A DNA stretch of 46,244 bases. Origin: Methanosarcina sp. KYL-1. Its GTDB lineage: Archaea > Halobacteriota > Methanosarcinia > Methanosarcinales > Methanosarcinaceae. The position numbers and the translations under genes were made by a program. The notes beneath the pieces were generated by a model that ran no database searches, was not told the origin of the DNA, and saw only the letters and a program-made list of their open reading frames with translations. The stretch spans positions 1-46,244 of the forward strand of contig NZ_VOUA01000031.1 of the NCBI RefSeq assembly GCF_024372725.1, read 5' to 3'. Numbering within the stretch: position 1 is the first letter of the stretch; each line of letters opens with the position of its first letter. This document shows, piece by piece, positions 19,760 to 42,116 of the stretch.

Positions 19760-20875
19760 TCAAGTTACAATCAGATTTTTAGCTTGAAGTGCAAATTTTT
19801 TGATATTAATAGCGGCATTTATGTCCCTGTCATGTTTTGTTTTACACACAGGACACTCCCATTCTCTAACATCCAGAGTTATGTTTGAATTGTGATACCC
19901 GCAAACGTTACAAAGCTTTGTTGATGGCTCAAATCTCCCTATCCTTAACAGGGTTTTCCCGAACCATTCAGCTTTATACACTAACTTTGTAACAAAACTG
20001 CTCCATGAAGAATCACTTATTGCCTGTGCAAGATGATGGTTTTTAAGCATACCATTAACGTTTAACGTTTCCACAGCTATTGCTTGGTTCTCGCGTATAA
20101 GTTTAGAGGAAAGTTGGTGCTGGAAATCGTTTCGCTGGTTGCTGATTTTTTCGTGAAGTTTGGCAAGCCTTAATTTGGCTTTTTCCCTGTTCTTTGAGCC
20201 TTTCGGTTTTTTGCTTACTCTTTTTTGCAGGACTTTCAGGCGTTTCATAGAGTTTTTCAGGTACTTAGGATTCTCTATTTTTTCTCCTGTTGAGATAACT
20301 GCAAAATCCTTGATACCCACGTCAACCCCTACAGTTGTATCAGCCGAAAATTCCTGTTTTTCAGGCAACTCTTCACCATTATCCACAAGAATACTGATAT
20401 AGTAGATTTCAGTGGAGGTTCTGGAAACAGTTGCTGTTTTTAGTTTTCCCTCAAACCTCTGGTGAAGAACTGCTTTAACTTTACCGATTTTAGGGAGTTT
20501 GACAACGTTATTCTCAAAATCGACAGTGTAGTGTTGAGGGACAGGGAAAGACTGTATAGGGTTCTTTCTTGATTTGAAATTAGGGAAACCATTCTTTTCC
20601 CTGAAAAACATGGTAAAGGCGGAATCTAAGTTTTTCGTCATTCCCTGCAATGACTGAGAATTTACTTTCTTAAGCCATTCATGCTCTTTTTTCAGTTCAG
20701 GAAGCCGTTTGTTCAGGTCATACTGGGATAGGGATCTCCCTTCCTGCTCGTAAGATTTGATTTTCTGTTCTAAAGCCCAGTTATAGACGAACCTGCAGCT
20801 ACCGATATGGTTAGCTATCATGGTTTTTTGTTCGGCGGCAGGATACAACCTGAATTTATAGGCTTTTAACATCAT
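19760..20875 (-). CDS. tnpB: TnpB, RNA-guided nuclease of an IS605-family element
   Basis: 371 residues, intact. N-terminal helix-turn-helix-like part (MLKAYKFRLYPAAEQKTM, NHIGSCRFVYNWAL). RuvC-like nuclease: first Asp in VGVDVGIKDFAVIS (about residue 190), Glu in AVETLNVNGM (about 270), and the last Asp in HDRDINAAINI after a zinc ribbon (CNVCGY, then CPVCKT, about 322-343). All three catalytic acids and four zinc cysteines are present, so it is probably active. TnpB cuts DNA matching its guide and helps the element persist. The start may be either of the two adjacent Met codons. Confidence 0.95.
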   Translation of the reverse strand: MMLKAYKFRLYPAAEQKTMIANHIGSCRFVYNWALEQKIKSYEQEGRSLSQYDLNKRLPELKKEHEWLKKVNSQSLQGMTKNLDSAFTMFFREKNGFPNFKSRKNPIQSFPVPQHYTVDFENNVVKLPKIGKVKAVLHQRFEGKLKTATVSRTSTEIYYISILVDNGEELPEKQEFSADTTVGVDVGIKDFAVISTGEKIENPKYLKNSMKRLKVLQKRVSKKPKGSKNREKAKLRLAKLHEKISNQRNDFQHQLSSKLIRENQAIAVETLNVNGMLKNHHLAQAISDSSWSSFVTKLVYKAEWFGKTLLRIGRFEPSTKLCNVCGYHNSNITLDVREWECPVCKTKHDRDINAAINIKKFALQAKNLIVT

Positions 20876-21101: not shown

Positions 21102-22007
21102 TTAGATTATGCCGGCCTTTTCAAGAAAACCTTCCAGAGGCACGGAATGGGTCTGGAAGCCGCAGACTTTGTATGGGTCCGCACCCATGGAAAGGGCCAC
21201 GAACTGGGCGATGTTCATGTGCACCATATCGTATTCCACGCCGAACTCCCGCTCAATCACGGGCTGGTAGCGGTCGTACTGGATGTGGCAGTTCGGGCAC
21301 ATGTGGAGCATGAGCTCTACCCCGGCTCTCTGCAGGCTGTCGAGTTTGGTTTTGGTAACCTGAAGCGAGGTATTTTTGTTCAGGTGGAGCTGGGAAAAGC
21401 CCATCCCGCAGGTCAGGGTACGGTCCTCGTACCAGCGGACAGGGAAAGCTCCGCAGGCTGCGGCTATAGTGTCTATGAGCTGGGGGTTTTCGGGGTTTCC
21501 GACGACGTCCAGGTACTTTACTTTATAATAATGGCAGGCGTGGTGGGCGGCTGCGCGGGTGCCGGCGAAATCGAGCTGCTTTTCTTCCCGGATTCGGTCG
21601 GCTTTGCTCAGGAGGATTTCGACGGCGTGGTAGAAATTTGTCCTGGGGTTCATGTCGCCTTTTTCGTAGACCAGGTCATCGAGGCCCTGTTCTCGGAAGA
21701 CGGAGTTGACTTTGTCCCGGACTTCGTCGTTTGTGTTCAGGAGCTCGCAGGCTTCCTTATTTACGGCATAGCAAGTGGAGCAGAGGCAGGTGATGTTAGG
21801 ATAGCCGCACCTCCTGGCAACGGCGAAGTTGCGGGCTGCAATGGCTGCGGTGGTAAGGCCTTCAAAGAGGTCTGTGTAGTGGCCGATCCCGGTGCAGCAG
21901 GACTGTTCGTCGTTTACCAGGTAGTCTATGCCAAGCCTGTCAAAGACATAGCGTGTGGCACTCTCTACCCCGGGGTACTCATGGGAGACCATGCAGCTCT
22001 TAAACAA
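21102..22007 (-). CDS. hdrB: Heterodisulfide reductase subunit B-like protein (CCG domains)
   Basis: 302 residues if started at TTG 22007, which gives FKSCMVSHEYPG in the position of F-L-G-C-I-x-P-x-R-x-P-G in HdrB. AGGAAG lies a few bases upstream and the overlap with hdrC is 8 bases. The longer frame from 22091 would overlap hdrC by 92 bases. HdrB carries the two noncubane [4Fe-4S] clusters that reduce CoM-S-S-CoB. The first CCG motif is complete (SC..., QSCCTG, CSTC). The second has HACHYYK, then LTCGMG where C-C-G is expected, then MCPNC. So one ligand cysteine of the second cluster is Thr. It is the last gene of the operon. Confidence 0.88.
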   Translation of the reverse strand: MFKSCMVSHEYPGVESATRYVFDRLGIDYLVNDEQSCCTGIGHYTDLFEGLTTAAIAARNFAVARRCGYPNITCLCSTCYAVNKEACELLNTNDEVRDKVNSVFREQGLDDLVYEKGDMNPRTNFYHAVEILLSKADRIREEKQLDFAGTRAAAHHACHYYKVKYLDVVGNPENPQLIDTIAAACGAFPVRWYEDRTLTCGMGFSQLHLNKNTSLQVTKTKLDSLQRAGVELMLHMCPNCHIQYDRYQPVIEREFGVEYDMVHMNIAQFVALSMGADPYKVCGFQTHSVPLEGFLEKAGII

Positions 22008-22719
22008 TAAAAGCTTCCTGTCCGGGATATTCTCTATCAGTTTCAAAGCCGAATTCTCCGCTCTTGTCTTCGTTTTTCTCACACCGTACATTCAGGAACT
22101 CATGAAGGCGTTTTTCCTGCAGTTTTCCTTTTATCCATTTCTCCCTTTCAAAATAACCTGTACCCTCAAGGATAGCCCGGACTTCCCCGTTGGTGTTCCT
22201 GACATCTTTCGGACCGAGCCCGAGTTCGGCCCGGATTGACTCCAGGTTCCGTTTAAACCCTATCCAGTGCTCACCAAGGTCTTTTTCCATGTTCCTGACG
22301 CCCGGACCCGGGACTTTGCTTGCCCCGTTTTCTGCCAGGACCTCCCCGATCTCCATAAAGTACTCAAGCCTCTCAAGCCCGATTCCTTCATTTATGGCCA
22401 TCTGCCTGAGCACCTGCACGATTGTTACCGGGCTGTTGTTCCTGGGACAGCGCAGATTGCAGGAATAGCAGTAGAAGCAGGCCCAGATCATTTCCGACTC
22501 AAGCACACTGCGGTCGTTTTCCTGAACCTTCTTTACGAGCTGCCGGGGGTTGTAGTCCGTAAAGCGGGCTGCAGGGCAGGACGCCGTGCAGGCTCCACAC
22601 TGGATGCAGCGGTCCAGCCCCAGGGAGGTAGGGGTCCGGATGCTTTTTTTTGCGGTCTCTGCAAGGGTTTTACACTCCGGGGTGTCGTATCCGTTTACGT
22701 GCGGCATCAATGGCATCAT
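22000..22719 (-). CDS. hdrC: Heterodisulfide reductase subunit C-like protein
   Basis: 239 residues. Two [4Fe-4S] motifs are visible, CIQCGACTASCP (about 38-49) and CFYCYSCNLRCP (about 81-92). It passes electrons from HdrA to HdrB. Starts at ATG 22719 overlapping the hdrA stop (ATGA). The C-terminal third is long and charged (GVRNMEKDLGEHWIGF to EKRLHEFLNVRC), longer than in minimal HdrC proteins. Confidence 0.93.
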   Translation of the reverse strand: MMPLMPHVNGYDTPECKTLAETAKKSIRTPTSLGLDRCIQCGACTASCPAARFTDYNPRQLVKKVQENDRSVLESEMIWACFYCYSCNLRCPRNNSPVTIVQVLRQMAINEGIGLERLEYFMEIGEVLAENGASKVPGPGVRNMEKDLGEHWIGFKRNLESIRAELGLGPKDVRNTNGEVRAILEGTGYFEREKWIKGKLQEKRLHEFLNVRCEKNEDKSGEFGFETDREYPGQEAFIV

Positions 22720-25184
22720 TTGATCATCTCTCCTTCCCGGGAAAGGGTGGTAAAAGTGCCTGCAAGCCCCTTAGTATTCGGGACGTAGGCTTTCTTGAAA
22801 TGGAGCCTGGAACCGTCTGCTCCGAGTTCCTCTTTCAGCTTTTCGAAATGGCTGGCAACAAGAGGATAGATTATTTCGGCTTTCGGGTTATCGGGGGGGT
22901 CTTCCACAAAAAGGACCGAAGCAGCCCCGTGCCTGAAGGCATGCAGCAGCAGGTCCCTGTCCACCACAAGGCCCGTAGGCACCCTGACGAGCTTGACACT
23001 TGAGGGGTAGTTAAGCACACTGTTTCCGATGTTGTCGCAGGTAAGGGCAGAAATCCCGCTGTTTACGAAGCTCAGAAGGTCTCCTTCTTCGAGGACCCCT
23101 TCAATTTCGGCTTTTAGCTGGGTTTTGGTAAAGCCTGCAACCTGTATTGCTCCGGTTTCACAGTGCCGGGTGCAGTACCCGCAACCTGTGCAGATCAGTG
23201 GGTCAACGACCACCCTCCCGCTTTCGGAAAAAGAAAGGGCCTCAAACGGGCAGTCCAGGCAGACCCCGCAGCGGGTGCAGAGTAGCTGATTGATGGCTGC
23301 CAGCTCATTCTCAAGGATCTTCGGGCTGTCCGTAATGAACGCCCTGGCCCTGACCGCAGCAAGCCCTGCCTGAGCGATGGCATCCGTGATGTCCTTCGGG
23401 CCCTGGGCCGTGCCGCAGACAAAGATCCCGTCCACCGAACTGTCTACAGGCTTCAGTTTGGAGTGCCTTTCCTTAACAAAGCCGTTCTCATCCTGGCTCA
23501 GGTTTAAAACACCTGCAATTTCCCTGGTTCCGGGAGAGGGAAGCATGGCCGCGGAAAGCACGACCAGGTCGGCCGGGAGTTCCAGCCTTTTCTGGTTCAG
23601 GGTGTCTTCGACCCTCACGACAAGGCTTTTGTCCGGCTTTTCCACGACTTCGGCAGGCCTGCCCCTCACAAAGGAGACACCCATGTCCTGGACTGCACGG
23701 TAATAGTTCTCGTAAAAGCCAAAAGCCCGCATATCGATATAGCAGATCGTAATTTCAGTATCCGGATGTTTTTTCGTTATAAGGCTTGCATGTTTCAGGG
23801 CAGCCATGCAGCAATACCTGGAACAGTAAGGGCTTCCTCCGGCTTTTTCGTCCCTTGAGCCCACGCACTGGATCATAACTATCCTTTTCGGGACCCCGGC
23901 AGCAGGTAAATTATCATTTTGATTCACACATGCACCTGAAACAGATGTACATGAAACAGATGAACCTGAAACAGAGGCACCTGACGCAGAGGCACCTGAC
24001 CGATCGGCATCTGAAAGCCTGCCGGAATCGGAAGGCCTGAGCAGTTCCCCTTTTGTGGGGCCATTGATCCCCAGCACCCTGGCAAGTTCCATCTGGGTCA
24101 GTACGTTTGAAAAAATCCCATACCCGTACTGGGGTTTCTGGGAGGCGTCATATTCTGAAAAACCTGTAGCAACAACGATGGCGCCGACATTTATTTCAAA
24201 AAATTCATCCTGCTGCCCGAAGTCGATTGCCCCGCTTCTGCAGGCTTCGGCACATTTCCCGCAGGCTTCCCCATCGCAGGCTTCCCCGTTTAACTGAAGG
24301 CAGTGTTCGGGGTCGATGCAGTAAACTTTCGGGACGGACTGGGAAAAGCGCAGGGAAATTGCCTTTTTATCTTTATGCCCGCAGTTGAACTCGTTTTCAA
24401 CGACAACAGGGCAGACCCGGGTGCAGCGCCCGCAGGCTGTGCAGTTGTCCCGGACATATCTCGGCTTTTTCTTCAGCAAAACTCTGAAGTTTCCGGCACT
24501 TCCATTTACCCGTTCAACTTCAGTCCAGGTTAAAAGAGTGATTTTGGGGTGAGCTGCAACCTCGTTCATAAGAGGGCTCAGCGAACACATGGCGCATTCT
24601 TCCGCAAGCTTGTCGGGGGAAAAGATCTTGCCGATTTTTGCCATCTGCCCCCCTATGCTTGAGTCTTTCTCAACAAGGAAGGTGGAAATGCCGTTATCCG
24701 CAAGGTTCAGGGCTGCCGTAATTCCGGATATCCCCCCGCCGATTACAAGGGCCTGAGGGGCGATGTCCACTTTTATCTCTTCCAAGGGCTCGACATTTTG
24801 CAGGCGCCTTAGTTTTCCCCGGAGCAAGGAGATTGCTTTCTCGGTGGCTTCGGCTTTTTCGGGGTGGACCCAGGCACACTGTTCCCTGAGGTTTGCAATT
24901 TCGAGCATTGCCCTGTTCAGCCCGGTTTCCTGGATGCACTTTTTAAACAGGGTCCCATGTTTGGAAGGAGTACACGAGCCAATCACGATTCCGTCCAGGC
25001 CTTCTTCCGAAATCTTGCCTTTGATCAGTGCCTGGCCCTGGCTCGAACAGAGGTACTCGTAATCAAAAACGGAAATCCCCTCGGATTTCAGGGTTTTTTT
25101 CACGGCACTTATATCAACATGTTCGGAAATATTCCCGCTACAGTGGCAGATGAATACGGCGGTTTTCTCCGGGGATGCTCTCAT
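22716..25184 (-). CDS. hdrA: Heterodisulfide reductase subunit A with a degenerate MvhD-like C-terminus
   Basis: 822 residues from ATG 25184. A TATA box 25-33 bases upstream supports this start over ATG 25313. Order: N-terminal cluster region (FICHCSGN, GSCTPSKHG), FAD site VIGGGISGITAALNLADNG (147-165), cysteine cluster CTACGRCTRVCPV (248-260), another Cys-rich stretch (289-315), CSRYCCMAALKH (454-465), and two C-terminal ferredoxin motifs CTRCGVCLDCP (636-646) and CTGCGYCTRHC (665-675). Residues 384-430 are a Ser/Ala-rich insertion. After 700 an MvhD-like domain follows without cluster cysteines. HdrA bifurcates electrons at FAD between ferredoxin and HdrBC. A HdrA-MvhD fusion is known as HdrA2 in Methanosarcina; the partner could be F420H2 or ferredoxin. 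Confidence 0.93.
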   Translation of the reverse strand: MRASPEKTAVFICHCSGNISEHVDISAVKKTLKSEGISVFDYEYLCSSQGQALIKGKISEEGLDGIVIGSCTPSKHGTLFKKCIQETGLNRAMLEIANLREQCAWVHPEKAEATEKAISLLRGKLRRLQNVEPLEEIKVDIAPQALVIGGGISGITAALNLADNGISTFLVEKDSSIGGQMAKIGKIFSPDKLAEECAMCSLSPLMNEVAAHPKITLLTWTEVERVNGSAGNFRVLLKKKPRYVRDNCTACGRCTRVCPVVVENEFNCGHKDKKAISLRFSQSVPKVYCIDPEHCLQLNGEACDGEACGKCAEACRSGAIDFGQQDEFFEINVGAIVVATGFSEYDASQKPQYGYGIFSNVLTQMELARVLGINGPTKGELLRPSDSGRLSDADRSGASASGASVSGSSVSCTSVSGACVNQNDNLPAAGVPKRIVMIQCVGSRDEKAGGSPYCSRYCCMAALKHASLITKKHPDTEITICYIDMRAFGFYENYYRAVQDMGVSFVRGRPAEVVEKPDKSLVVRVEDTLNQKRLELPADLVVLSAAMLPSPGTREIAGVLNLSQDENGFVKERHSKLKPVDSSVDGIFVCGTAQGPKDITDAIAQAGLAAVRARAFITDSPKILENELAAINQLLCTRCGVCLDCPFEALSFSESGRVVVDPLICTGCGYCTRHCETGAIQVAGFTKTQLKAEIEGVLEEGDLLSFVNSGISALTCDNIGNSVLNYPSSVKLVRVPTGLVVDRDLLLHAFRHGAASVLFVEDPPDNPKAEIIYPLVASHFEKLKEELGADGSRLHFKKAYVPNTKGLAGTFTTLSREGEMIK
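23932..24021. repeat. 15-bp in-frame repeat inside hdrA
   Basis: Six copies of a 15-bp unit, best copy GCACCTGAAACAGAT, code for the VSGSS/ASGAS pentapeptides of residues about 391-420 of HdrA. HdrA of other methanogens normally goes directly from the R-P-S-D region to PKRIVxIQCVGSRD. Confidence 0.92.
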
Positions 25185-27750: not shown

Positions 27751-27827
27751 TGGTGGGCCCGCTGCGATTCGAACGCAGGACCTCACGGTTATCAGCCGTG
27801 CGCTCCACCAGGCTAAGCTACGGGCCC
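27751..27827 (-). tRNA. tRNA-Ile (anticodon GAT)
   Basis: On the minus strand the 77 bases start GGGCCCGTAGC and end GCGGGCCCACCA. The anticodon arm is ACGGCTGATAACCGT, with GAT at the anticodon position. The T arm is CTGCGTTCGAATCGCAG. The 3' CCA is encoded. Its neighbour at 27897 differs by one base in the D loop. Confidence 0.97.
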
Positions 27828-27896: not shown

Positions 27897-27973
27897 TGGT
27901 GGGCCCGCTGCGATTCGAACGCAGGACCTCACGGTTATCAGCCGTGCGCTCCACCAAGCTAAGCTACGGGCCC
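27897..27973 (-). tRNA. tRNA-Ile (anticodon GAT), second copy
   Basis: Identical to the first copy except for one C-to-T change in the D loop (GCTTGG versus GCCTGG), CCA encoded. About 70 bases of unrelated sequence separate the two genes. Tandem duplication with very recent divergence or gene conversion is the likely origin. Confidence 0.97.
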
Positions 27974-28156: not shown

Positions 28157-28199
28157 ATACTGTGATTTAAAGGAAATGCGCGTGGCGCAGTAAATGTAT

Positions 28200-28271
28200 G
28201 GGCCGGTAGATCAGGGGAAGATCGCTACCTTGGCATGGTAGAGGCCTCGGGTTCAATTCCCGACCGGTCCA
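28200..28271 (+). tRNA. tRNA-Ala (anticodon GGC)
   Basis: 72 bases: acceptor GGGCCGG pairs with CCGGTCC (with one G-T pair), anticodon arm CTACCTTGGCATGGTAG has GGC, T arm CGGGTTCAATTCCCG, discriminator A. The CCA is not encoded, unlike the tRNA-Ile genes next to it. A T-rich tract downstream can end transcription. Confidence 0.95.
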
Positions 28272-28300
28272 TAAAAATTATGTTCTATTTCTTTTCTCTG

Positions 28301-35646: not shown

Positions 35647-38163
35647 TTATTCTCCTTCCACTGCCGATTCTGCTGCCGGCGTTTCTCCTGTTCCCGTAGC
35701 TGCCTGCATTTTCCTGAGCCGCCTCATTTCCTTTATGCGCCTGACGATGATTTCGCTGAGGTAGAGGAGGAGGGCTGCGAGGAGCACGTATACTTTCAAG
35801 CTTACGGGCTCGTTTACTTCCCTTTCGGAGTTCTGGCGGGCATCTTTCAGGAGGAGGGCTCTTGCTTCCCTTGAATCGTAGATCTTCCCGCCGGTCGCAA
35901 GGATGAGGGGCTCTATATCCCTGTTGATCCCCACGTCCCTAAACTCCAGAGGGTAGTTTACGGCAAGGGGATAGCCTGAGATATCGTAGATCCTCATTTC
36001 GTCCGGGTTCACGGTGGCTTCGTAAGTGTTGCGTCCGGTAAGGGCAAGGTTGATAGGCTCCCCGTCGATTTTCAGCTTAGGGACGCCTTCATCGTACATT
36101 ACGAGGGTCAGGTCTGCAGGGGTCCCGAGCCAGGTGTCAGGGGCGTCAAGGACGGCTCCTTCTTCAGCCCGGGGGTTTCCTATAGCCCAGTTGGTCATGC
36201 CCGAGATGAGTTTGGCATTCTGCCCGGTATAGAGGACAGGGCTCCAGCGGCTTCCCTCGCCTTCCCCGTTGTCCGTGGAAAGGGCTGCAACCCTCCCGAG
36301 CCCGAAGCGCCAGGTGGTGAGCACAGGTTTTCCGGTAACCGTGATGACAAGGCGTTCGGACCCGGCTTTCGGGGTCACGTCATTGTAGCCGGTGATAGTG
36401 CCGGAAACGTTCCCTTTCAGGTTTTTCGTGATGAAATGGTCAGGGGAGTACACGAGGAGAGGGTAGGCGTCAAGCTCAATTTCTTCTTCCTCGCCTTCCT
36501 CGGGGAGCTTTTCGATCTTCTCGAATTTGATGTTTGCCCTTTCTCCCTGCTCGATGTGGAAATAGTTCTTCTCCAACTCCAGTTCCTGCATCAGCCTCTC
36601 GGCATAATAGGTTCTGGTAGTGAGATCAGTCTGAGAAGGGGCAGGAGAGCGGATATGAATAAAGTAAATGTTTACCCCCATATCCTGCAGATCCCTTGCA
36701 GCTTTAAGGCTCTGGTCATAAGATTTCTCTATACCTCCGTCCGATATTACAATGGCATCCAGCTCGCCATCTTCACTTTCTAGCATCTCTTTTGCGGTCT
36801 CAAGCCCCTGGTCCAGGGAAGTCTTGCTCTGTTCGTCAGGGGTCAGCTGCGAGATTTTATCTTCCAGTTCCGCCAGGTTCCGGGGCTGCCCGAGGAACAC
36901 AAACCCGTCAGAAACGTCTACTCCCTTGCTCCCAAAAGCAATAACGCCGGCATTTGCATCTTTGAGGTTTTCGTTCCTGAGGATGTAGATAGCATTACCA
37001 AGGAGATCTCCCAGGGTTTCGTGCTTTTCCGTGCTCGGGGAAATGTCCAGAATAAGGACGATATTCCTGCCTCCCTTAAACTCGGAAGGCTTCGAGACCA
37101 CAGGCAGGATTTCTTCTAAGGAAGAGTTGAGGTAATCCCCGTAGTCGTATGCCTTTTCCCCTCCCACGACAATCAGCCCGCCTCCGTCGCTGACGTATTT
37201 CTTGATCTCTTTTACCTCGGCTTCGGAAAGGGTGCTTATGAGCCGGTTGTCAAGGACCAGGGCCTTGCTGTCTTTGATTTTTGCAATTCCGGGGTAATCG
37301 GACACTACCGAGACATCATAGAGGTTTTTAAGGACCAGGCCCAGGGGAGCTGAGGGTTCGCTGCTTACGAGGGTGAGCTTGGGTTTCGGGACCACGTAGA
37401 GAGCTTTTGAAAACTCGTTATTGAGGTCGTTTAAGTCTTCTCCCGAGGGGGTGATCCTTACCATTATGTTGTGGGCGCCGAGGGAGTCGAAAGCCCAGGT
37501 GATAGGGATAACGTTCGTCCTTTCCTGCTGGGAAAAGCTCTTGCTCCTTTCAAGATTCCCGTCCACGTAGAATTCAAGGAAGTAGCTGACGCTGTCCTCT
37601 CCGGCTTGCTGGACAACGATTTCAAACTCATTTTCGTTTTCCACAACAACGGCCTTGTCCCCCAGCACCTCGACACTGAGGTCGTTTACCTCGAGTTCGG
37701 GCTCGACCAGGTAGACAGGGGTATCGGTTTCTTTTGCAAATTCCAGGGCATCCACAAGGCTTTTTCCGGCGTTGTTGTTCCCGTCGGTCACGAGCACGAC
37801 CTGGGTGCCGCTCCCGGCGTACTGGAGGACAGCGTCGCCAAGGCTTGTCTTGTCCCCGGTAAGCTGGATGAAAGTGGTGGGGGTCTTTGCGGTAAGGGCT
37901 TCGTAGAGCTCGGTTCCTGTCCCTTCCTGGAAGATCCCCATGCTCGAAGTCTCGTCCGAGACCACAACAAGGGACGGGTTATCCTCACTTACAGTCTGCG
38001 GGGCCGTGGTAAAGGGGGAGGCCAGGGCCAGGACCAGGAGGAAGGCAACAAGCATCCTCCATTCCACAAGCTTCGTCTTTGTCTTCCGCAGGAGGTAAAA
38101 GCCTGCAATAAGGACCGGGATAATGAGGAGGAGCATCTCGGGGTGTGCAAGGGAGACGTTCAC
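35647..38163 (-). CDS. Large membrane protein with two VWA-like domains (Bat operon)
   Basis: 838 residues. Two helices at the N-terminus (LLLIIPVLIAGFYLL, then RMLVAFLLVLALASPF) flank a short cytoplasmic loop. The first VWA-like domain has VVVSDETSSMG (about 66-76), a variant MIDAS. A second VWA domain starts at NIVLILDISPSTEKHE (about 355-370). Between and after are beta-rich stretches including a GATase1-like part (DGGGLIVVGGEKAYDYGDYL). The C-terminus ends with one helix (LKVYVLLAALLLYLSEIIV) and a basic tail. It overlaps the BatA-like gene by ATGA. In bacteria such proteins accompany a MoxR ATPase and assist assembly or activation of other proteins. Confidence 0.9.
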   Translation of the reverse strand: MNVSLAHPEMLLLIIPVLIAGFYLLRKTKTKLVEWRMLVAFLLVLALASPFTTAPQTVSEDNPSLVVVSDETSSMGIFQEGTGTELYEALTAKTPTTFIQLTGDKTSLGDAVLQYAGSGTQVVLVTDGNNNAGKSLVDALEFAKETDTPVYLVEPELEVNDLSVEVLGDKAVVVENENEFEIVVQQAGEDSVSYFLEFYVDGNLERSKSFSQQERTNVIPITWAFDSLGAHNIMVRITPSGEDLNDLNNEFSKALYVVPKPKLTLVSSEPSAPLGLVLKNLYDVSVVSDYPGIAKIKDSKALVLDNRLISTLSEAEVKEIKKYVSDGGGLIVVGGEKAYDYGDYLNSSLEEILPVVSKPSEFKGGRNIVLILDISPSTEKHETLGDLLGNAIYILRNENLKDANAGVIAFGSKGVDVSDGFVFLGQPRNLAELEDKISQLTPDEQSKTSLDQGLETAKEMLESEDGELDAIVISDGGIEKSYDQSLKAARDLQDMGVNIYFIHIRSPAPSQTDLTTRTYYAERLMQELELEKNYFHIEQGERANIKFEKIEKLPEEGEEEEIELDAYPLLVYSPDHFITKNLKGNVSGTITGYNDVTPKAGSERLVITVTGKPVLTTWRFGLGRVAALSTDNGEGEGSRWSPVLYTGQNAKLISGMTNWAIGNPRAEEGAVLDAPDTWLGTPADLTLVMYDEGVPKLKIDGEPINLALTGRNTYEATVNPDEMRIYDISGYPLAVNYPLEFRDVGINRDIEPLILATGGKIYDSREARALLLKDARQNSEREVNEPVSLKVYVLLAALLLYLSEIIVRRIKEMRRLRKMQAATGTGETPAAESAVEGE

Positions 38164-40037
38164 AGCTCACCCCTCCCGCGCACGATCAGGATCTCAAGCA
38201 GCATGAGCAAAAACAAAACTCCGATCAGGTAGTTGGTGATCTCTTTTTTGGCGGTGTAGGAGTCAGCCCGGACCAGCCTTGGCTCGTCGTTTGCCACAGC
38301 CCGCTGGATCAGTTCCGATGCGTCAACTGTAGTATCGGACTCCCTGTCGTCGTAGAGGTTGACTGCTATCTTCTTGCCGGAAATTGCGTAGACTCCGGCT
38401 TCGTCAAAGAGGATACGGTTTCCAGTCAGGGTTTTAGAAGGCGTCTGGATTTCCTCGGTCTTCGAAAGGGAAGTCAGGGTGCCGGTTTCCAGGTTGTATT
38501 CGGAAATGTCCCCCGTGCCTCCGAGCCACTCAATGAGCTTTATCCAGAACATGGGATACTCGGGCAGGTTATGGAAGTTGTTCCAGGCCCCGTCCCCAAG
38601 CTCATCGTTTAACCCGAGGTAGAAGACGGTCCCCTCTCCTACCTGCCAGTAGCTCATAACCGGGACATCGTTTTCAAGGGCTGCCAGGGTTGTGGAGCCG
38701 GTCCTCTCTGTTGCGTTCAGGTACTTGCGGGCAGAAATCTCTTCCACTTTCACATCCTGGGTAATGCTGCTCTCCGTGACTTCTTCGACCTCAAGCCCGT
38801 CTTCGGCTTCCTCCACTCCAATTGGTTTTACCGGCAGGAGCTTTATGAGGTCAACATCCGTCTTTTCCGGGACAAGGGCGCCGCTTGCAATGAAAACGGC
38901 ATTTCCTCCTCCTTTAACGTAGTCTTCGATCCTTCCTACTGAACTATTTGCAATCGGAGTCTCTTTCTGGGCAAGCACCACAAGGGTGTAATTCCCGAGG
39001 TTTGAAGGCACGGATTTCCAGACCTTTATGTCACTGTTGGGGAGCAGCGAGAGTGCGGTTTTGGAGGGCAATTTCCCGTCATCGGTAATAAAGAGGATCT
39101 GCTGCCTGGCAGTTTCCGGGATTGAGATGTAGGCGCTGTTGTCCACGGGGAAGTCGTCCTCCTCCGCAAGCTGCACACGTGTGATCCCTGGCCCGAGGTC
39201 CTCGAGGGTAAACTGGTTGGTTTCTCCCGCAGGGACATCAAGGGTAAAAGACTTTGAGGCGCTTCCGGTAATTCCCCTGCCTGTTTCGAGCTCCACCTTC
39301 CGGTTCGTGTCCATGTAATTCTTGACCACGCAGGTATAGGTGTAAGCCCCGTCCACGGCTTCGATCCAGCCGTTGATGATACCCACATTGTCTGCAGGCT
39401 TTCCGACCTTCACGAAATTGACCTGGAGCCCGTAGGACTCGGCCAGGTTTTTCGAGGCAACAGGGTCATCCCCTTCCCAGTTTGTGAAATCCGAAATTAC
39501 GATGATCCTACCCCCTTCGTTAGACAGGAGGCGCATCCCTGCGCTGATCGAGGCGGAAAGGTCGGCAACCCCGGCTCCGGGCCGGACATCTTTAAGGATA
39601 TCCTTTGCAGCCGAAGAGCCTTCGCCCTCCAGGACCAGGAGGGGCATGTTGGAAGCCAGGATGATACTGTTTTTCTTGCTCACGTACCCGTCGGCAATGT
39701 CCACTGCATCTTCAAAGCGGGAGTCCACCTGCATGCTTGCCGAACTGTCCAGGATGAGTACCGTATGCTCCCCGCTCAGGGGCTCTTCTGCAGTATAATA
39801 GTACCCTGCGGCTGCAATGGAAAGGAGGATAAGCATGAGGAGCTGGACAAGGAATAGGGGGTCTTTTACGATCTTTGTGATCGAGGCGTAGACCCGTTTT
39901 CGCTCCCTCTCGAGTTTCAGGACGAACATGAGGGAGGGAATAGAAAGCACCGAAGGCTTCGGGCGGAGCATGTAAAGGATGATAAGCGGGATTACGCTCA
40001 GGAGAGCGGCAAGGGCAAAGGGGTTTTCTAAAGGCAT
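38160..40037 (-). CDS. BatA-like VWA membrane protein
   Basis: 625 residues. The N-terminal BatA segment MPLENPFALAALLSVIPLII has two membrane helices with a basic loop. A VWA domain follows with an intact MIDAS start TVLILDSSASM (about residues 91-101). The middle is beta-rich, with a GATase-like portion around 340-390 (VLAQKETPIANSSVGRIEDY). One helix closes the protein (NYLIGVLFLLMLLEILIVRG). It starts 4 bases after the DUF58 gene, so the operon is tightly packed. Confidence 0.9.
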   Translation of the reverse strand: MPLENPFALAALLSVIPLIILYMLRPKPSVLSIPSLMFVLKLERERKRVYASITKIVKDPLFLVQLLMLILLSIAAAGYYYTAEEPLSGEHTVLILDSSASMQVDSRFEDAVDIADGYVSKKNSIILASNMPLLVLEGEGSSAAKDILKDVRPGAGVADLSASISAGMRLLSNEGGRIIVISDFTNWEGDDPVASKNLAESYGLQVNFVKVGKPADNVGIINGWIEAVDGAYTYTCVVKNYMDTNRKVELETGRGITGSASKSFTLDVPAGETNQFTLEDLGPGITRVQLAEEDDFPVDNSAYISIPETARQQILFITDDGKLPSKTALSLLPNSDIKVWKSVPSNLGNYTLVVLAQKETPIANSSVGRIEDYVKGGGNAVFIASGALVPEKTDVDLIKLLPVKPIGVEEAEDGLEVEEVTESSITQDVKVEEISARKYLNATERTGSTTLAALENDVPVMSYWQVGEGTVFYLGLNDELGDGAWNNFHNLPEYPMFWIKLIEWLGGTGDISEYNLETGTLTSLSKTEEIQTPSKTLTGNRILFDEAGVYAISGKKIAVNLYDDRESDTTVDASELIQRAVANDEPRLVRADSYTAKKEITNYLIGVLFLLMLLEILIVRGRGEL

Positions 40038-40040
40038 TTT

Positions 40041-40922
40041 TTAGCGCCTCCTTCTCCTGATAGTATGGTAGAACGCATCAAAGATAGGGGTGTCGCTCGT
40101 AAAGGTGTAGAACTCGGCCCCGACCTTCATGCAGGCTTTTTTAATCCGGGCGCTGTGCTCATCGAGCTTTTCCGTGTAGCGTTCCTTGAACTTTTCACTT
40201 ACGTATGTCCTGACCTCTTCCCCGGTCTCAAGGTCAATGAGCTTGCTGTTTCCCTGCAGTGGAAGCACTTTTTCCGTGGGGTCGAGCACCTGGATCAGGA
40301 TCAGGTCATGGTCAGAAAGCCTGTATACGGCCGTTTCTATAGCCTGCGGGTCCTGCAGGAAGTCCGAGACCAGGATGACAAGGGAACGGGACTTGATTTC
40401 CCGGCTGTACTTCGTGACGCACTCGTCAATGGCAGTGCCCCCGGAAAGCTCGAGTTCGCTCAGGCGGTCAATTGCCCGCATGAGGTTCTTCTTTCCCCTG
40501 CGGGGCTTGTTGATGTCAAGCTCCTGCGTAAAGGTGGAAATGGCAAACCTGTCGTTGTACTTGGTTACCATGTAAGCATAGCCTGCCGCAAGCATGGCTG
40601 CGTATTCGAACTTGGAAATCCCCTTCTCAGGGTAGTCCATGCTTTTGCTGGCGTCCAGGAGGATGTGGGTGGTAAGGGTCTTTTCTTCCTCAAACTGCCG
40701 CACGTAGAGTTTTTCAGTCCTTGCATAGGCTTTCCAGTCGATGTCCTTCAGTTCGTCGCTCTGGTCGTACTCTCGAAACCCTATGGTATCGATGCCGTGC
40801 CCGCTGCGGGTGGACGGGCGGTTTCCGGCATAGACCGTAGACACCCTTTTCCGGACCGAGAAGGTAAAGCGGTCAAGCTGCCTGAAAAAATCCGTTTCGA
40901 TTTTCTGTCTTGTGCGGGTCAT
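40041..40922 (-). CDS. DUF58 protein (Bat operon)
   Basis: 293 residues. The hallmark of the family is seen at GIDTIGFREYDQSDELKDID followed by WKAYART (about 45-70). A VWA-like part follows, LLDASKSMDYPEKG (about 88-101). Members sit beside MoxR ATPases and probably recognise clients for them. No membrane segment. Start ATG 40922. Confidence 0.93.
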   Translation of the reverse strand: MTRTRQKIETDFFRQLDRFTFSVRKRVSTVYAGNRPSTRSGHGIDTIGFREYDQSDELKDIDWKAYARTEKLYVRQFEEEKTLTTHILLDASKSMDYPEKGISKFEYAAMLAAGYAYMVTKYNDRFAISTFTQELDINKPRRGKKNLMRAIDRLSELELSGGTAIDECVTKYSREIKSRSLVILVSDFLQDPQAIETAVYRLSDHDLILIQVLDPTEKVLPLQGNSKLIDLETGEEVRTYVSEKFKERYTEKLDEHSARIKKACMKVGAEFYTFTSDTPIFDAFYHTIRRRRR

Positions 40923-41029
40923 TCTGGATCTTCAATTAAAAAGCCCGGTGCCTTCCCGGGCCCAAAAACCCTTAAAGGGAACCTTATTTCCTAATCCGGC
41001 CTCTTGCTTTTAACTCAAGCATTCGGCTT

Positions 41030-41145
41030 TACAGGATCAATCCGACTTAACGGGACCACTCCGGTTTTATGAAACCAATCAGACTTAATGGACAAGTCCG
41101 ATGTTACCGGACAAATCAGATTTTGCCGGACCTGTCAGATTTTAT
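41030..41145. repeat. 18-20 bp degenerate repeat
   Basis: Copies of CCGGACAAATCAGATTTT-like sequence (ATCCGACTTAACGGGACC, ATCAGACTTAATGG, AAGTCCGATG, AAATCAGATTTTGCCGGACC) cover the gap between the DUF58 and MoxR genes and run to the end of moxR. Confidence 0.7.
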
Positions 41146-42116
41146 TTGACCTTCTGGAGGATTTCCCGGACAGCCTCGTCGGTGGTCATTCCGCTCCTTT
41201 CGGCTTCGAAAGTGAGGATGAGCCTGTGCCGGAGGACCGGGTATGCCATGGTATCGACATCCTCCTTGCTCACAAAGTTCCTGCCCTGGATCAGGGCCCT
41301 GGCTTTTGCGGCGAGGATGAGACCGATGGAGGCCCTGGGGGATGCCCCGTATTCAATGTTCTCTTTGTCTTTCCGGGTCATGGCCACAATGGAAAGGACG
41401 CGCTGTTTGAACTCATCGGAGATGGGGACCTGCCTGGTGAGTTTCTGCAAATCGAGGAGTGTGGTTTTATCCAGGCCCCGGGAAATCTCAGGGGCTTCGG
41501 ACTTCGTGTAGCGATTTATGATTTCCATTTCCTCTTCGTAGGAAGGATAGTCCAAAAGGATCTTTAAGAGGAAACGGTCGAGCTGGGCTTCGGGCAGGGG
41601 ATAAGTGCCTTCCATTTCAATGGGGTTCTGCGTCGCAAGGATGAAGAAAGGTTTGTCAAGGAGATAGGTATCATTGCCCACGGTTACCTGCTTTTCCTGC
41701 ATAGCCTCAAGCATTGCCGACTGGGTCTTCGGGGATGCCCTGTTTATTTCGTCCGCGAGCACGATGTTTGCAAAGACCGGCCCGGGCTCGAACCTGAACT
41801 CTTTTCCCTTTTCCCCTTCCTCGATAACATTGGTCCCCGTGATGTCCGAAGGCATGAGGTCAGGGGTACACTGGATCCTGCTGAATTTCAGGTTCATGGC
41901 CTTTGAAATGGTGGAGATCATGAGGGTTTTTCCAAGCCCCGGGTTGCTCTCCACAAGGGCGTGCCCTCCGCAGAGGATTGCAATCACGATCTGTTCCACT
42001 GCTTCCTTCTGGCCTACGATCACAGTCCCTATCTCTTCAAAAAAACTTTTAAAAATTCGGCCCGCGTTCTGGTAGGTCACGGAGGCCTGCTCCGAATTGA
42101 TGTTATTCTCGTACAT
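41142..42116 (-). CDS. MoxR-family AAA+ ATPase
   Basis: 324 residues. Walker A ESNPGLGKT (56-64, Lys63), Walker B IVLADEINRAS (118-128, Asp122-Glu123), sensor 1 in FILATQNPIEMEGTYPLPEA (about 158-177) with Asn165, and the Arg finger region QLDRFLLK. MoxR proteins use ATP to remodel or load cofactors into partner proteins and usually work with the DUF58 and VWA neighbours. The overall length is typical. Confidence 0.95.
   Translation of the reverse strand: MYENNINSEQASVTYQNAGRIFKSFFEEIGTVIVGQKEAVEQIVIAILCGGHALVESNPGLGKTLMISTISKAMNLKFSRIQCTPDLMPSDITGTNVIEEGEKGKEFRFEPGPVFANIVLADEINRASPKTQSAMLEAMQEKQVTVGNDTYLLDKPFFILATQNPIEMEGTYPLPEAQLDRFLLKILLDYPSYEEEMEIINRYTKSEAPEISRGLDKTTLLDLQKLTRQVPISDEFKQRVLSIVAMTRKDKENIEYGASPRASIGLILAAKARALIQGRNFVSKEDVDTMAYPVLRHRLILTFEAERSGMTTDEAVREILQKVK

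Follow-up and report, generated by a model that had tools for sequence, protein, structure and literature searches.

An MvhD-fold domain without cluster ligands in HdrA1 of Methanosarcina and a possible loss of flavin bifurcation

The window analysed here is a 46,244-nucleotide stretch of DNA from Methanosarcina sp. KYL-1 (assembly GCF_024372725.1, contig NZ_VOUA01000031.1), and we focused on an operon on its minus strand that encodes a heterodisulfide reductase (Hdr). The first gene, hdrA1 (22716..25184, minus), encodes an HdrA of 822 residues with an MvhD-like domain fused to its C-terminus; an in-frame ATG upstream is an alternative start and would give a protein of 865 residues. The start of hdrC1 (22000..22719, minus) shares four bases with the hdrA1 stop, and hdrB1 (21102..22091, minus), with CCG domains of family PF02754, follows in the order hdrA1-hdrC1-hdrB1. 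In solved Hdr complexes, the [2Fe-2S] cluster of MvhD is the port through which electrons derived from H2, formate or F420H2 pass toward the bifurcating flavin adenine dinucleotide (FAD). We found that the MvhD-like domain of HdrA1 retains the predicted fold and none of the cluster ligands, and that a glutamate used as a marker of bifurcating flavin sites is missing from the same protein.

The first-pass annotation of this DNA had by implication taken the protein for HdrA2, an assignment that did not hold. The hdrA1C1B1 genes of M. acetivorans are MA3126-MA3128, for which four hdrA/hdrC primers have been printed (PMC9963511; this and the other papers given by PMC number are represented by parts of their text). 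All four published primers match one locus, L007, exactly, and the HdrA protein of L007 is 79.9% identical to that of the window. Because the primers match L007, L007 is about 80% identical to the window protein and the operon has the A-C-B order, we conclude that the protein is HdrA1, the orthologue of M. acetivorans hdrA1, and not HdrA2, as judged from sequence. The M. acetivorans locus has the same operon, its copy in L007 shares the cysteine-less domain and the alanine described below, and nothing substantial differs between the two. A second HdrA-MvhD fusion is encoded in the same genomes; it is about 36% identical, has all cysteines intact (e.g. L034) and by elimination is presumably HdrA2 (MA2868). 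The HdrA2 of the F420H2-dependent bifurcating HdrA2B2C2 complex of M. acetivorans resembles HdrA1 in its fused C-terminal MvhD. It differs in keeping the five cluster cysteines and the glutamate, in the low identity, and in that hdrB and hdrC do not adjoin the gene (0 of 19 cysteine-intact loci). The neighbour search at related loci was aimed at hdrB and hdrC only; it recovered the A-C-B order at all 19 Methanosarcinaceae HdrA1 loci outside the genus, and hdrB adjoined hdrA at all ten HdrA1-type loci outside the family. A tree built on the HdrA core put the window gene outside HdrA2, in a separate clade of 55 members (support 1.0). The window's genome contains two FlpD domains, that of HdrA1 and that of HdrA2, so no separate MvhD subunit is standing by.

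We next consider the domain itself, which, together with a linker, spans residues 684-822 (22719..23135, minus). The claim that HdrA continues after C675 with an MvhD-like extension of about 120 residues was confirmed by Pfam and by the predicted fold. The FlpD family (PF02662) scored 59.6 bits over residues 704-815, where the cut-off is 22.3 (E = 3.8e-16). An AlphaFold2 model of residues 684-822, computed from an alignment of the window protein and 31 named relatives (A4), had a predicted local distance difference test score (pLDDT) of 82.7. When this model was compared with MvhD and the rest of the PDB, as the first-pass annotation had proposed, MvhD chains ranked first: the only Foldseek matches with E of at most 0.001 were 5odh_D, 5odc_D, 8rvu_F and 7bkb_F, all MvhD chains, with E from 5e-7 to 2.5e-5. 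VIA-align gave the same four chains Z scores of 12.4-13.1 over 121-124 residues, and the next chain scored 8.2. A profile of the domain (A1) searched against the PDB likewise returned MvhD-type chains only, representing six distinct sequences, at E values up to 1. The Foldseek and VIA rankings rule out an unrelated fold. Lumazine-synthase-like and other Rossmann-like matches, with VIA Z of about 8 or less, were set aside as a common arrangement and not a sign of kinship. We conclude from profile and model that residues ~699-822 adopt a true MvhD/FlpD fold. HdrA1B1C1 has been contrasted with HdrA2 as lacking an MvhD sequence (PMC6019823, in the part of that text available to us); HdrA1 does have one, in a cysteine-less form. 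A genome paper of 2009 describes HdrA and MvhD as fused in Methanosarcina species (PMC2702500).

To locate the cluster ligands, the cysteine columns were set by alignment to M. acetivorans-type HdrA2 and to solved MvhD chains. The HdrA2 domain of L034 lines up with solved MvhD through C-N-W-C, C-S-x-R (or C-T-x-R) and G-C-x4-C. All five positions are cysteine in five aligned solved MvhD sequences, the cluster-binding cysteines being taken from the alignment and not from coordinates; a sixth, 9sfi_K, has X at two of the five, which we took as selenocysteine. In the window HdrA1 these positions are N708, I711, T737, D762 and P767. N708..I711 (23052..23063, minus) stands at the C-x2-C pair of MvhD and HdrA2, T737 (22974..22976, minus) at the cysteine of C-S-G-R, and D762..P767 (22884..22901, minus) at G-C-x4-C, and the motif readings given earlier (FVNSGIS, VPTGLVVD and VEDPPDN) are correct in the sequence and correctly placed. 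MvhD, VhuD and ElpC, the [2Fe-2S] subunits that link Mvh, Fdh or Elp to HdrA, share their fold and Pfam family with the HdrA1 domain, which differs in lacking the ligands and in being fused to HdrA instead of forming a separate subunit. The MvhD domain of HdrA2 (MA2868), by comparison, has been reported with a [2Fe-2S] cluster (PMC5296606).

It had also been claimed that only Cys716 remains. C716 (23037..23039, minus) is indeed the sole cysteine of the domain and the only one after C675, and it lies off the ligand columns, one column away from an extra, non-universal cysteine of HdrA2 (SYACAD). Outside the genus, 13 of 19 HdrA1 genes lack it. As a surviving ligand it was therefore rejected, being neither homologous nor conserved outside the genus, g4 and g5. 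Some orthologues have two cysteines (reading VPTC), and an MvhD-type [2Fe-2S] site would not be possible with one or two. We also considered selenocysteine encoded by an in-frame TGA in four domains of g10, the genus that contains Methanohalophilus. This candidate was discarded: the proteins end in ...EVEE, the profile had overrun the natural stop, and with profile A2 the same four domains contained no stop. Because all five ligand positions are lost, the MvhD electron port is almost certainly closed in HdrA1, and the earlier suggestion that the domain cannot hold a [2Fe-2S] cluster gains support. It follows that a Pfam match to MvhD is no guarantee of a [2Fe-2S] cluster, which bears on models of electron flow in the archaea that carry a second cysteine-less clade, described below.

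We then examined how widely the loss is shared. An hdrA1 orthologue is present in 28 of 30 genomes of the genus, and the domain is cysteine-less in all 28, which excludes chance. Within the family, close relatives (at least 120 bits with the profile and at least 199 bits in a second search) occur in 47 of 111 genomes and 7 of 14 genera, including Methanohalophilus euhalobius and HMMV metagenome-assembled genomes (MAGs) named for ANME-3; all 19 family genes outside the genus lack all five cysteines. None of the 27 genomes of genus g11 has HdrA1. All sequenced Methanosarcinales have been said to have HdrA1B1C1 (PMC6019823, in part), and the count of 47 in 111 Methanosarcinaceae genomes is contrary to that statement. 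A search of the class (237 genomes) and of a sample of the phylum (392 genomes) found no further close relative outside the family. Ten distant relatives from five other families (L154, L155, L161, L203-L209) were recovered that share these features, all of them cysteine-less, so that the HdrA1 type, as sampled, extends over the Methanosarcinaceae (with Methanohalophilus and ANME-3-like genomes among them) and into five further families of the phylum. The survey of HdrA2 proceeded as the first-pass annotation had proposed: the five cysteines were kept in all 19 testable genes of the genus and, elsewhere in the Methanosarcinaceae, in all 17 genes of the HdrA2-like type. This outcome favours the first-pass reading, which a loss throughout HdrA2 would have refuted. 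In one HdrA2-type paralogue (L035, genome G002 of the genus), the gene is split into frames of 603 and 264 residues, possibly through an assembly error.

A domain stripped of its ligands could be what is left of an MvhD fusion in decay. No cluster ligand survives, and the median pairwise ratio of nonsynonymous to synonymous substitution rates (dN/dS) is slightly higher in the HdrA1 domain (0.107) than in the rest of the protein (0.081). In HdrA2 the values are 0.061 for the domain and 0.039 for the rest. These medians were taken over pairs with dS of 0.1-1.5 only (197 and 299 of 325 pairs for HdrA1; 125 and 157 of 171 for HdrA2) and left out the partial HdrA1 genes L029 and L030. A value of 0.107 is that of a constrained sequence, none of the 47 Methanosarcinaceae genes has a stop inside the domain, and 26 of 139 columns are invariant over 32 sequences. 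The domain is also retained in other families, even where the C-terminal ferredoxin is missing (L154, L155, L208, L209). We conclude that the HdrA1 domain is under purifying selection that is only slightly relaxed, and a functionless relic, rejected on dN/dS, is very improbable.

The second feature of HdrA1 lies near the flavin. E356 and K409 of Methanothermococcus thermolithotrophicus HdrA have been used to separate bifurcating from non-bifurcating flavin sites (PMC12054007, PMC9430772), and E356 is proposed to position the lysine that tunes the flavin. A gap-free alignment to 5odc_A places A368 of the window HdrA1 (24081..24083, minus) at E356 and K464 (23793..23795, minus) at K409, so the glutamate is replaced and the lysine kept. 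Among 47 Methanosarcinaceae HdrA1 genes, one was too short to read; of the other 46, 45 have alanine and one serine at this column. In two sets of HdrA2-type genes, 20 of 20 and 17 of 17 have glutamate there.

We compared the two losses across 123 HdrA-MvhD fusions. Fifty have five cysteines and glutamate, 55 have no cysteines and alanine or serine, 18 have no cysteines and glutamate, and none combines the cysteines with alanine. Genes shorter than 560 residues were excluded (L030 and L082, both HdrA1 and visibly cysteine-less, and L032, an HdrA2), as were the stand-alone reading frames L153 (148 residues) and L171 (145 residues); the frame-broken L035 was not aligned, and L031 was omitted because it duplicates the gene in L049. 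We built a tree of the HdrA core from which both the MvhD domain and the E356 column had been left out; it gathered the alanine/serine group into one clade and the 18 cysteine-less genes with glutamate into another, each with support 1.0. Because the two form separate clades, there were at least two losses of the cysteines and a single loss of E356. The second clade (L102-L105, L156-L160, L162-L170), whose loss is independent of that in the HdrA1 type, has the motif I-D-P-A-A-Y-A-A-A-D in the C-terminal ~140 residues of HdrA and keeps E356; its hosts belong to families f2-f5 and to two genera of the Methanosarcinaceae, of which one includes MAGs named for ANME-3.

Since the first set of fusions had been found through the MvhD domain, we ran a second search, of 80 genomes from beyond the family, using a profile limited to the core (HdrA residues ~205-384) and disregarding the domain. 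These genomes were chosen mostly for FlpD matches and are not a random sample. Among the best 30 loci, the top 12 all had alanine and no cysteines; the other 18 all had glutamate, 15 of them with five cysteines. No HdrA with alanine at E356 and intact cysteines, or with alanine and no MvhD domain, was among these best 30 loci of the 80 genomes.

A further peculiarity of HdrA1 lies just upstream of the domain, in the C-terminal ferredoxin region C636-C675 (23160..23279, minus), where the first cluster motif has one residue fewer than that of other HdrA. The motif is C-x2-C-x2-C-x2-C (23250-23279, minus) in all 45 readable Methanosarcinaceae HdrA1, and C-x2-C-x2-C-x3-C at the same place in 74 of 78 other HdrA; the remaining four lack the motif, and this ferredoxin is absent from them. 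The shortened motif suggests, among other signs, a changed donor side in HdrA1. The four without this ferredoxin are HdrA1-type genes of two other families (L154, L155, L208, L209), in which it is lost and the cysteine-less MvhD domain is joined directly to the flavin domain. HdrA1 also contains a low-complexity linker rich in Ser, Gly and Ala at residues ~388-430 (23895-24023, minus), which HdrA2 lacks and which varies in composition and length between each orthologue shown.

The loss of the MvhD port together with the loss of E356 leads us to propose a ferredoxin donor and no bifurcation. On this proposal, to which we assign a probability of roughly 0.55, HdrA1 would be an enzyme with an emptied MvhD port that takes no electrons through MvhD and may not bifurcate. 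As to the route, it is about an even chance that reduced ferredoxin delivers electrons to the ferredoxin clusters of HdrA, from which they would pass to FAD without bifurcation and then through HdrC to HdrB for reduction of CoM-S-S-CoB, the heterodisulfide of coenzymes M and B. A deletion phenotype has been read as reduced ferredoxin cycling (PMC9963511).

Several points weigh against this proposal. Published genetics has been interpreted in terms of bifurcation, and schemes after Buan and Metcalf have HdrA1B1C1 bifurcate ferredoxin electrons to F420 and the heterodisulfide (PMC7399021, PMC6315138, PMC6019823, each seen in part); these schemes are biochemically unverified. The equivalent of K409 is retained in HdrA1, and the use of E356 as a marker was itself proposed from structures and is unproven in Hdr. 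The second cysteine-less clade keeps its glutamate, so a cluster can be lost while E356 stays, and the coupling of alanine with the missing cysteines reflects one clade and one evolutionary event, not 55 independent ones, and is not statistical. In addition, the full-length model of HdrA1 is poor (pLDDT 58.3, predicted template modelling score 0.45), and the position of the domain cannot be read from it. Several of these points would fit an enzyme whose FAD still bifurcates, from two reduced ferredoxins to F420 and CoM-S-S-CoB. F420 would then react directly at the flavin, the domain would be only structural, and A368 would be tolerated because another residue positions the lysine. Some HdrABC complexes, HdrA2B2C2 among them, are believed to need no additional subunit for reacting with F420H2 (PMC9012536). 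We consider a bifurcating HdrA1 less likely, since the residue used as a marker of bifurcation is lost in all 46 readable genes.

Whichever donor HdrA1 uses, the conserved body of the domain calls for a role. In the Elp-Hdr structure, a mobile arm is made up of the MvhD homologue ElpC and the terminal domains of HdrA, and it carries the [2Fe-2S] cluster, and after it a cluster of HdrA, close to FAD (PMC12350162). We infer that the MvhD body was quite probably kept as a structural or docking part of this arm, holding either the arm or a partner; the docking module named by the first-pass annotation is thus in keeping with a domain that is conserved and has no ligand left. A different use of the emptied pocket would be a new entry or docking site for another cofactor or partner (flavodoxin, ferredoxin, F420 or another protein). 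Lineage-specific invariant residues stand in place of the cluster motifs (E78, D82 and K114-K115-x-Y-x-P in alignments A2 and A4) and the domain is constrained by dN/dS, but we identified no ligand-binding signature, the neighbour search at related loci took in only hdrC and hdrB, and we regard such re-use as improbable.

A broader possibility, to which we give somewhat less than even odds, is that HdrA1-type proteins form an old and widespread class of non-bifurcating heterodisulfide reductases. On this view their ancestor bifurcated, the MvhD port was later emptied and the flavin-tuning glutamate removed, and the domain stayed on in a mechanical or docking role. The published scheme, with its bifurcation of ferredoxin electrons to F420 and the heterodisulfide by HdrA1B1C1, would then be wrong. 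Two sequence features in a single protein predict that electrons cannot enter via MvhD and perhaps that bifurcation does not occur. The type Ia HdrA classes (PMC12054007) share the architecture of HdrA1, a type I HdrA with a C-terminal MvhD; in the accessible part of that scheme, the fused MvhD is treated as a [2Fe-2S] carrier and clades without ligands are not separated. We found no mention of the cysteine-less domain of HdrA1 or of its missing glutamate in the open-access literature, although Buan and Metcalf 2010 and Appel et al. 2021 may mention them; what may be new here, from sequence comparison, is the extension of the finding to a conserved enzyme class with a predicted loss of bifurcation.

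Elsewhere in the window, an IS605 OrfB/TnpB-type protein (PF01385, PF07282) is encoded near the hdr operon (19763-20875, minus). Two tandem tRNA-Ile (gat) genes (27751-27827 and 27897-27973, minus) lie near a tRNA-Ala (ggc) gene (28199-28272, plus). Farther along, positions 35650-42116 (minus) hold a row of genes for a MoxR AAA ATPase and for DUF58, BatA/DUF7408 and VWA-domain proteins.

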